Below are positions 154 to 3,138 of a stretch of 40,149 nt of DNA, in pieces (position 1 is the stretch's first letter; each line of letters opens with the position of its first letter). Source of the stretch: Methanofastidiosum sp. GTDB taxonomy: Archaea; Methanobacteriota_B; Thermococci; Methanofastidiosales; Methanofastidiosaceae. The DNA is taken from positions 1 through 40,149 of the forward strand of contig JAHKLW010000077.1 in the NCBI GenBank assembly GCA_020854815.1, given 5' to 3'. The notes beneath the pieces are model-generated. The model saw only the letters and a program-made list of their open reading frames with translations, did no database searches and had not been told where the DNA came from. The translations under genes were made by a program, and so were the position numbers.

Positions 154-522
154 CTAAATGTCAATTTCAATAATTTTTGAGATAATTCCTTCTATCTCTT
201 TTGCCGTTTCTAAACTGATCATGCCAATACTTTTTAGCATTAGAGATTTGTTGATAGTAAATATTTTGAACGGCAATATCTCACTTTTCTTGACGAGGTG
301 CCCTTCTTCCAGATCAACATCGTCAATGATAATGCTATCTTCAAAATTCCTGATCTTGCTTGTGATAGGTATGGCTATAACGGTATTGTGATTTATGTTA
401 TACTTTTCATTAGAAACGATGACGCAAGGCCTCTTCTTAAATTCATTTTTATCATCAAAAGGAAACAGGCCAAGCACTATTTCTCTTTGCCTAAAGATTG
501 TCCCAGAGGTCATCTTCTTCAT
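154..522 (-). CDS. MazF/PemK-family toxin (endoribonuclease)
   Basis: The 122-residue product has the PemK/MazF layout. The N-terminal strand RQREIVLGLFPF leads into the loop, then RPCVIVSN at about 31-38 and IPITS at about 51-55. Family members form an SH3-like barrel dimer and cleave mRNA, usually inhibited by a small acidic antitoxin encoded just upstream. Here the upstream frame (491-670) is such a partner and overlaps this start by 32 nt. ATG at 522 or a second in-frame ATG at 513 could be used. The gene sits in an accessory segment beside a tRNA-Lys fragment, consistent with a mobile origin. The family call is firm; toxicity and target are not shown by sequence. Confidence 0.85.
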   Translation of the reverse strand: MKKMTSGTIFRQREIVLGLFPFDDKNEFKKRPCVIVSNEKYNINHNTVIAIPITSKIRNFEDSIIIDDVDLEEGHLVKKSEILPFKIFTINKSLMLKSIGMISLETAKEIEGIISKIIEIDI

Positions 523-1300: not shown

Positions 1301-1319
1301 ACTATTGATTATCAATAGT
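1301..1319. promoter_or_regulatory. 19-bp palindrome, candidate operator
   Basis: ACTATTGAT and ATCAATAGT flank a single central T, a perfect 9-bp inverted repeat. It sits 26-44 bp upstream of the TATA box at 1345, where an archaeal activator or repressor could bind. The core TTGATTATCAA recurs at 34970-34980, upstream of another strong promoter. Confidence 0.4.
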
Positions 1320-1344: not shown

Positions 1345-1354
1345 TTTATATATT
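1345..1354 (+). promoter_or_regulatory. TATA box for the structured RNA
   Basis: TTTATATATT lies about 25 nt before the 8-bp inverted repeat TTGTCAAT/ATTGACAA (1374-1393). Transcription would therefore start near 1373-1378, at the foot of the predicted RNA. A second, separate promoter at about 1560-1575 serves the permease gene, so this one appears dedicated to the RNA. Confidence 0.5.
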
Positions 1355-1373: not shown

Positions 1374-1495
1374 TTGTCAATCAACATTGACAAAAACCTA
1401 TCCGTTAGTAGGGATCTTGGAGCAGATTCCTGCATATAAAACTCCAATTACGATGATGGGGGAGAAATCCCCCTGAGTATTTAGCTATTTTTGGA
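1374..1495 (+). ncRNA. Candidate structured RNA with a box C/D-type kink-turn
   Basis: Successive hairpins can be drawn. TTGTCAAT/ATTGACAA (1374-1381 with 1386-1393). ATCC with GGAT (about 1400-1415). TTGGAG/CTCCAA (1417-1422 with 1442-1447) enclosing GCAG-ATTC-CTGC (1422-1433, sharing G1422). Last is a stem GGGGGA/TCCCCC (1458-1463 with 1468-1473) closed by a GAAA loop. The base of that stem is GATG (1455-1458) facing CTGA (1473-1476), with a 3-nt bulge GAT (1452-1454). This is the G.A, A.G, U.U, G-C pattern of a box C/D kink-turn, the binding site of archaeal L7Ae. A weak outer helix AATTAC/GTATTT continues it. A T-run (1488-1492) may end it. It could be an RNP guide-like RNA, a free regulatory RNA, or a riboswitch-like leader. 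I do not recognise a known family. Confidence 0.55.
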
Positions 1496-1559
1496 TATAT
1501 ACTACGTCAAAAGACTATAAATTAGGATTACCTACACGACAATACTATCTGTAAACACC

Positions 1560-1575
1560 GAAAAGTTTATATATA
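1560..1575 (+). promoter_or_regulatory. BRE/TATA promoter of the permease gene
   Basis: A purine-rich BRE-like CGAAAAG is followed by TTTATATATAA, close to an ideal archaeal promoter. Transcription should start near 1595, giving a leader of about 104 nt. The leader can form an imperfect hairpin (1596-1611 with 1628-1645, arms TTTGAGTATATTCTTT and AAAGAGTATATATTCAA) and a small one (AAGTC 1656-1660 with GACTT 1665-1669). A long folded leader is unusual beside the short leaders of neighbouring genes. Confidence 0.6.
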
Positions 1576-1698
1576 ATCGCCTTAATATATATTTGTTTGA
1601 GTATATTCTTTTTGGCTAATATTTGCTAAAGAGTATATATTCAAGCATGTTGATTAAGTCACTTGACTTTTTCAAACAAAAAAAATGGAGGAAAAAAC

Positions 1699-3138
1699 AT
1701 GTCTGGAATTGGATATTTTGGTCCAAAAAGGCCGCCAGGATACGAAGAACAGCCTTCAATTAACCCAAGTTTTTTGAAGCTTAGGCTACCATTCTACCAC
1801 TATCCAATAGAATACCAGGATTTCATCCAAGGAGTAATTTTGACATGTGTGCCTTTAGGTATCACGGTCGCCATGGAAGGAACTATGGGTATCCCTATTG
1901 AACTTGGTGTAGTAATGGTCATGGTAAACAACTTTTTCTATCTATGGCACACAACCTTTGGTGACCCATCAGTTGCCGGTTGGATTACCCCTGGTATTCC
2001 TATCTATACCGCATACTTTGCCACATACTCCAACACCATTGTTGGTCCAACTGGAGTATATATAGAAAGAATGCAAGCATTAATAGCGATGCAGCTTATA
2101 TTAGCAATAATATTCTTGGTGCTTGGTGTAACAGGAGTAGGTAGAGAATTTGTAACACGTATTCCAAAGTCTATCACAGCAGGTATACTATTGGGTGCAG
2201 GTCTAGCATCACTTCAAACAATTTTCAGCCCAGCACAATCCTATGTAGCTAAGACACCGGTATCATTCCTAGTATCTGCAGTGGTGTCTCTGTTCTTACT
2301 GTTCTCTAAGAGAGCAGTTTCGTGGCGAAAGCAGAATAAGATATTCCAATGGCTTGCAGGATTTGGAATAGTGCCTGGATTCATTGTAGGATACATACTT
2401 GGTCTGATAACTGGAGAAATCCAAGTCGATATGGCAAAAGTAACACAGAGCATTATCATCCCAATCGATTTTGGCAGAATCTTAAACGAGGTTTCAGTCT
2501 TCGGAGTTGGATTCCCAAGTGCTACTCTGCTCGGTGCTGGTGTAGCTGTTGCTATAGTAGCATACATTATTGCTTTCGGAGATATACTTATCCTGAAATC
2601 TTTAATCAAGCAGGCTGACGAAGCAAGACCAGATGAGAAACTACTTGTTCACATAGGAAGAAACCACATCATTACCGGATGGAGAAATGTACTCATGGGT
2701 ATGTTCTTCCCATACGTCCCAATGTGCGGTCCACAGTGGACTGCTGGCCAAGCGCTTGTAGTTCAGAGATATATGCACTCAACACCAGAACAGGAATACA
2801 CCTACTGGGGTGGAGCAACAAGCCTATTCTGGGGTATGAGCATAGGCCTATTGATAAACCCAATAGTTCAGATAATGCTACCAGCAAGAACTATCGGATA
2901 CGGTCTAACCTTGTTAATTCAGGGATACCTCTGTTCTTATCTTGCCATGGAAATGGTTGAGAATAATATCCAGAGAGCTATTGCAGGTATAATGGCTGCA
3001 ATATTGGTCGTAGCTAACTACGTCACACTCTGGAAGAGTCCGTTCTTCTCTGCACCAGCAATGGGTTTAGTAGCCGGTATTATTCTCTACTTCGTACTTG
3101 AATACGAAGGTGGAATGGCAAAGACCAAGAAAAAATAA
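1699..3138 (+). CDS. UraA/SulP-fold permease (NCS2-like), strongly expressed
   Basis: The 479-residue, highly hydrophobic protein has the expected number of segments for a 7+7 inverted-repeat transporter (about 12-14). The motif GDPSVAGWITPGIP (about 88-101) resembles the substrate-site region of the UraA/NCS2 and SulP families. GAGLASLQTIF and GFPSATLLGAG are further glycine-rich breaks. The start is ATG 1699, seven bases after a strong GGAGG at 1687-1691; an upstream in-frame TTG at 1663 lacks support. A strong promoter, strong ribosome site, long leader and biased codon choice suggest high expression. NCS2 members carry nucleobases and SulP members carry anions. The substrate here is unknown and the subfamily uncertain. 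Confidence 0.7.
   Translation: MSGIGYFGPKRPPGYEEQPSINPSFLKLRLPFYHYPIEYQDFIQGVILTCVPLGITVAMEGTMGIPIELGVVMVMVNNFFYLWHTTFGDPSVAGWITPGIPIYTAYFATYSNTIVGPTGVYIERMQALIAMQLILAIIFLVLGVTGVGREFVTRIPKSITAGILLGAGLASLQTIFSPAQSYVAKTPVSFLVSAVVSLFLLFSKRAVSWRKQNKIFQWLAGFGIVPGFIVGYILGLITGEIQVDMAKVTQSIIIPIDFGRILNEVSVFGVGFPSATLLGAGVAVAIVAYIIAFGDILILKSLIKQADEARPDEKLLVHIGRNHIITGWRNVLMGMFFPYVPMCGPQWTAGQALVVQRYMHSTPEQEYTYWGGATSLFWGMSIGLLINPIVQIMLPARTIGYGLTLLIQGYLCSYLAMEMVENNIQRAIAGIMAAILVVANYVTLWKSPFFSAPAMGLVAGIILYFVLEYEGGMAKTKKK

Follow-up and report, generated by a model that had tools for sequence, protein, structure and literature searches.

Organization of the locus

The stretch of DNA analysed here, referred to as the window, spans 40,149 nt of a Methanofastidiosum sp. 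contig and carries, near its beginning, the conserved core of a predicted small RNA followed on the same strand by a gene for a purine-type permease; the features of this region are collected in Table 1. In archaea, the TATA element lies approximately 25 nt ahead of the transcription start, and a TATA-like element is found at this distance from the predicted start of the RNA, with its core, TTATATAT, retained in all eight homologues described below. The T-run behind the core is presumed to be an archaeal terminator. It was not listed by a bacterial-type terminator scan; T-rich stretches also follow the conserved core elsewhere, where the contig continues, with neither their spacing nor their sequence conserved. 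The permease ATG is located about 220 nt downstream of the RNA, and a promoter of its own intervenes, which is conserved in the homologues that have the permease beside the RNA and absent from the RNA locus of genome G003 (PWMA01000038.1). An earlier interpretation, hereafter the sequence-only reading, had proposed a TATA box at 1345-1354 at the right distance, a T-run after the RNA and a separate permease promoter at about 1560, and all three are present.

Upstream of the RNA promoter, the homologous loci share a perfect palindrome that could be a regulator site. This palindrome, ATTGATTATCAAT, resembles elements upstream of a gene for a signal-peptide-like protein (G001:C13, G002:C16 and G008:C10; loci L148, L158 and L155), and a regulator shared by this gene and the RNA promoter is possible. 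Further upstream, a tRNA-Lys(CTT) gene is represented at 840-905 by its 3′ portion and some 17 additional nt. Contig C76 has an intact tRNA-Lys that matches it at 98%, and C37 a second fragment that does so at 95%; the stretch resembles an attachment site for an integrating element with tRNA-Lys as its target. This fragment separates the RNA from a MazF/PemK-type toxin gene (154-522, minus strand; Pfam PF02452). A small frame at 948-1082 on the minus strand, divergent from the RNA, seems by eye to encode a winged-helix DNA-binding protein, and a similar frame occupies the same place in G004.

Table 1. Features of the RNA locus, in window coordinates
Feature	Position	Strand	Basis or remark
Palindrome CTATTGATTATCAATAG, possible regulator site	1302-1318	.	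Perfect; conserved in homologous loci, upstream of the RNA promoter
TATA-like promoter element of the RNA, TTTATATATT	1345-1354	+	Sequence; about 25 nt ahead of 1374
Small RNA, conserved core	1374-1480 (~107 nt)	+	Predicted start ~1374, end ~1480-1492
P1, 8-bp 5′-terminal hairpin, TTGTCAAT/ATTGACAA	1374-1393	+	Sequence and eight-genome alignment
P2, long hairpin, GUAGGGAUCU/AGAUUCCUGC, loop UGGAGC	1408-1433	+	Minimum free energy (MFE) and centroid folds in the window
Near-invariant segment AUAUAAAACUCCAAU	1434-1448	+	Predicted mostly unpaired; candidate antisense or interaction region
Kink-turn hairpin	1449-1479	+	Window sequence, read base by base
Kink-turn C-stem	UAC 1449-1451 / GUA 1477-1479	+	3 bp; sequence
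Kink-turn bulge	GAU 1452-1454	+	Sequence
Kink-turn tandem pairs	G.A 1455.1476, A.G 1456.1475	+	Sequence
Kink-turn 3b.3n	U1457.U1474	+	Sequence
Kink-turn NC stem	1458-1463/1468-1473	+	6 bp; sequence
Kink-turn loop	GAAA 1464-1467	+	Sequence
T-run, presumed archaeal terminator	1488-1492	+	Sequence
Permease promoter, separate, CCGAAAAGTTTATATATAAT	~1558-1577	+	Sequence; between the RNA and the permease start codon
Purine-type permease, outside the RNA unit	1699-3138	+	PDB 7tak 'PurT', E 5e-68

Fold of the RNA and anatomy of the kink-turn

The RNA folds better than its shuffled versions (z -3.5), the corresponding values being -1.9 for the minus strand and +0.3 for the following 107 nt. Both P1 and the kink-turn stem have high predicted pairing probabilities in all homologues, and the P1 stem shows no base substitution in the eight sequences, with variation found in its loop. 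Between them, the P2 pairing (1408-1417 with 1424-1433) reaches probabilities of 0.82-1.00 in six of the eight homologues; in the same six, two short stems that could form in its place, CCTA/TAGG and TTGGAG/CTCCAA, have probabilities of 0.00-0.05. The two folds compete in G004 and, to a lesser extent, in G003. Four of the nine P2 pairs vary on one side with the pairing kept (GU/AU, UG/CG, UA/UG and CG/UG), and one pair is broken in G006. The sequence-only reading had placed three further hairpins ahead of the kink-turn, among which the 8-bp hairpin at 1374-1393 stands and the two middle stems give way to the single P2. A pseudoknot between UUGGAG at the P2 loop and CUCCAA is possible but lacks support from covariation; the match is perfect in most homologues and imperfect in G006 and G007. 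The segment that follows P2 has one substitution, in a single genome (G005), across the eight.

Reading the kink-turn hairpin base by base, we located GATG (1455-1458) facing CTGA (1473-1476), the GAT bulge, the 6-bp stem and the GAAA loop exactly where they had been proposed. A three-nucleotide bulge is followed by tandem G.A and A.G pairs between the C helix and the NC helix, as in a standard kink-turn, and the -1b:-1n pair is C:G. Shuffling a 40-kb window gives an expectation of approximately 0.7 kink-turn-like hairpins of the same size, with both strands counted; thus, the motif by itself is not significant, and its significance comes from conservation. In the eight homologues, the GAU bulge, the G.A and A.G pairs, the C-stem and the NC stem are invariant, and the only variable sites are 3b, 3n, the first base of the tetraloop (which is UAAA in G003) and the base directly after the C-stem. 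Five genomes have U.U at 3b.3n, two have A.C and one has A-U. The kink-turn varies only at sites where the motif allows it. The 3-bp C-stem has a low nearest-neighbour pairing probability (0.16-0.38) despite its conservation, and an ACUC/GAGU pairing competes with it in the MFE structure of most homologues.

All kink-turns tested fold with L7Ae; poor folding with ions only is expected of a kink-turn without 3b=C or 3n=G, and a C:G pair at -1b:-1n favours folding with ions (PMC6298567). Given the U.U, A.C or A-U pairs at 3b.3n and the C-stem of only 3 bp, L7Ae-assisted folding is likely, and these rules suggest that the kink-turn needs L7Ae to fold; this dependence is not certain, since the C:G pair at -1b:-1n favours ion-induced folding. 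An L7Ae-family gene is present in all ten genomes of the genus. The natural 3b.3n variants, occurring in otherwise near-identical kink-turns, offer material on the tolerance of L7Ae-dependent folding.

Distribution of the RNA and its relation to the permease

When 60 relatives were searched at the DNA level, seven genomes, all from the same genus, gave strong homologues with identities of 81-96%, and most of these matches stop just past the kink-turn. A covariance model built from the eight homologues, window included, was run on 21 genomes of the order and 115 of the phylum; it matched in eight of the ten genomes of the genus, with E values of 1e-18 to 1e-22, and found no RNA in the other 105 phylum genomes. 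Phages, plasmids and viral contigs gave no match. Exact matches to GGGGGAGAAATCCCCC in Thermococcus were discarded as a coincidence, as they correspond to a 23S rRNA hairpin. At gathering and permissive thresholds, Rfam 15 returned only chance-level matches at the RNA and none at its homologues, in agreement with the earlier view that it fits no known family.

The core has a mean column identity of 94% in the eight aligned genomes. The average match to the window is 0.91-0.99 within the RNA, and immediately past 1480 it drops to 0.37 from 0.97-0.99. P1, the C-stem and the NC stem together hold 32 gap-free paired columns, and none of the 21 variable columns is one of them (hypergeometric p ~1e-4). 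No pair shows a double change in the eight homologues, which are too similar for true covariation, so covariation is not decisive here. The earlier claim that the RNA is promoted independently and has a genuine kink-turn is supported.

The position of the RNA raises the question of whether it opens a cis-acting leader or riboswitch of approximately 325 nt for the purine permease, in which the kink-turn would fold an aptamer sensing a purine or L7Ae. Riboswitches commonly hold kink-turns (PMC5061560), and seven of the eight homologues lie upstream of the permease on the same strand or have a contig edge there. The RNA and the permease occur together in all eight RNA-bearing genomes, and the two genomes of the genus that lack the RNA also lack the permease; a trans link between them is possible, and shared ancestry of one locus explains the co-occurrence equally well. 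Nevertheless, the order of genes in the window (RNA, permease, VTVKISK) is not kept in G003. There, the gene next after the RNA is the small VTVKISK gene, which carries a promoter-like element of its own, CTCTTATATATC; the permease comes later and is not preceded by the RNA. This layout, in which each of the two occurs without the other beside it, contradicts the switch that the sequence-only reading had allowed. Moreover, the second permease of G004 has no RNA upstream. INDEPENDENCE from the permease, as seen in the separate promoter, the G003 layout and the second copies without RNA, argues against a permease leader or riboswitch; with the sharp drop in conservation at 1480 and the absence of an Rfam riboswitch match also against it, we consider this explanation unlikely.

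Two copies of purine-type permeases were observed on one contig in three cases (G004:C33, G005:C126 and G015:C14), and several assemblies break within the permease gene. Permeases of other families in the order give full-length matches with 46-49% identity, and no RNA match was obtained in the genomes that carry them.

Proposed function and comparison with known RNAs

Taken as a whole, the region from 1374 to approximately 1490 probably is a stand-alone, genus-specific gene for a small noncoding RNA that would be bound by L7Ae and may act in trans via its near-invariant unpaired segment. The independence of the RNA is suggested by the comparison of the homologous sequences; its binding by L7Ae would follow from what is known of the motif, and its action in trans we infer. 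According to this proposal, RNA polymerase would start near 1374 and stop in the T-run, L7Ae would bind and fold the kink-turn to give a stable RNP, and the exposed AUAUAAAACUCCAAU segment could then pair with one or more target RNAs, possibly mRNAs, the adjacent purine permease being a neighbour and not a cis target. The 'small regulatory RNA' and 'RNP RNA' possibilities mentioned in the sequence-only reading are mutually compatible.

Regarding the putative targets, the sites complementary to AAAACUCCAAUUA in the genus are mostly within coding frames or away from gene starts, and the permease start site ranks only 7th among 37 window frames by duplex energy. At the adenylate kinase gene, 12 of the 13 bases of UAAUUGGUGUUUU, just before the AUG, can pair with the near-invariant segment in G000, G001, G002 and G007. 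The match also occurs in G009, a genome in which no RNA was detected. In G003 and G004, the same 13-mer sits away from the adenylate kinase gene, at which no such match was obtained; in addition, the match covers a Shine-Dalgarno-like GGUG that would be conserved in any case. This start site may be regarded as a weak lead. A more specific scheme, in which an L7Ae-dependent trans-acting RNA couples RNP or ribosome status to purine supply and represses purine genes such as adenylate kinase by blocking the ribosome binding site after L7Ae has folded the kink-turn, is distinctly unlikely.

The features that point to L7Ae are also those of the archaeal guide RNAs, in which L7Ae is a shared core protein, and a divergent box H/ACA or box C/D sRNA could direct pseudouridylation or 2′-O-methylation with L7Ae and either Cbf5 or Nop5/fibrillarin. 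Like these RNAs, the window RNA has an L7Ae-type kink-turn with C- and D-box-like strands: its AUGAUGG is close to the box C consensus RUGAUGA (PMC5539422), and a box D CUGA is present. However, these boxes are 12 nt apart in one hairpin closed by GAAA, which leaves no guide between them, and only this C-like/D-like pair is found, with no second (C′/D′) pair to flank guides. A pseudouridylation pocket with conserved guides is likewise missing, the C-stem being just 3 bp, and no conserved ACA or ANA box follows, as the sequence 3′ of the C-stem is unconserved beyond GUAU/C. Neither did any segment show complementarity to 23S rRNA clearly above that of shuffles in a search that covered the complete 23S genes and flanks of two loci. 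With no Rfam match either, a modification guide is improbable. The 5′ stem-loop of the eukaryotic U4 snRNA is another capped box C/D-type kink-turn hairpin bound by an L7Ae-family protein; the similarity is with an RNA of another domain of life and does not imply homology.

The conservation could also reflect mainly control at the DNA level, through operators like the 1302-1318 palindrome and the 1374-1393 dyad, instead of a functional RNA. Both show little or no variation, and conservation in the upstream block equals that in parts of the RNA. Yet the near-identity runs 87 nt past the dyad with a pattern of variation specific to a kink-turn, and the dyad has no visible regulon: the P1 palindrome has no second exact copy in the genus and its near-matches are little above the control, which gives no indication that it serves as an operator across the genome. 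We therefore regard this alternative as very unlikely. Still less credible is a gene for a small peptide or another coding feature; an open frame of seven codons (ATGATGGGGGAGAAATCCCCCTGA) does run over the hairpin in the window, but G003 and G004 have CGA in place of its TGA stop, its second codon changes, and no Shine-Dalgarno sequence precedes it.

As a stand-alone small RNA, it belongs to a broad type that is already known, that of the archaeal sRNAs with L7Ae-type kink-turns, but represents an undescribed family. L7Ae-bound sRNAs of unknown function with kink-turns have been reported in P. abyssi (PMC3124441), and L7Ae-bound sRNAs of unknown function also in S. acidocaldarius (PMC5539422). 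The P. abyssi RNAs sRkB, sRkC and sRk52 are likewise archaeal intergenic noncoding RNAs with a kink-turn or K-loop and bind L7Ae in vitro; unlike the single-copy, genus-restricted window RNA, they are described as repetitive or derived from leaders and as limited to Pyrococcus or Thermococcales, and sRkB has two kink-turns, compared with one here, and extends over the start of the following gene (PMC3124441). There is no evidence of homology between them and the window RNA. The new family, which comes from an uncultured, methanogen-related lineage, joins the small number of archaeal kink-turn sRNAs; its anatomy is clear, and it overturns no known scheme.

The GAU bulge followed by G.A and A.G, with box C/D-like strands, is shared with the L7Ae-bound sRNAs and mRNA kink-turns of S. 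acidocaldarius (PMC5539422) and with the l7ae leader (PMC6298567). In the l7ae leaders, the kink-turn lies at the Shine-Dalgarno sequence of the mRNA it controls, whereas no gene start is close to that of the window RNA. We also observed that CTGATGAAAAAC...GTTTTGAGGAATGAGG is conserved directly ahead of the start codon in the L7Ae leader (loci L102 and L095-L097); this element may be of the known l7ae autoregulatory kink-turn type.
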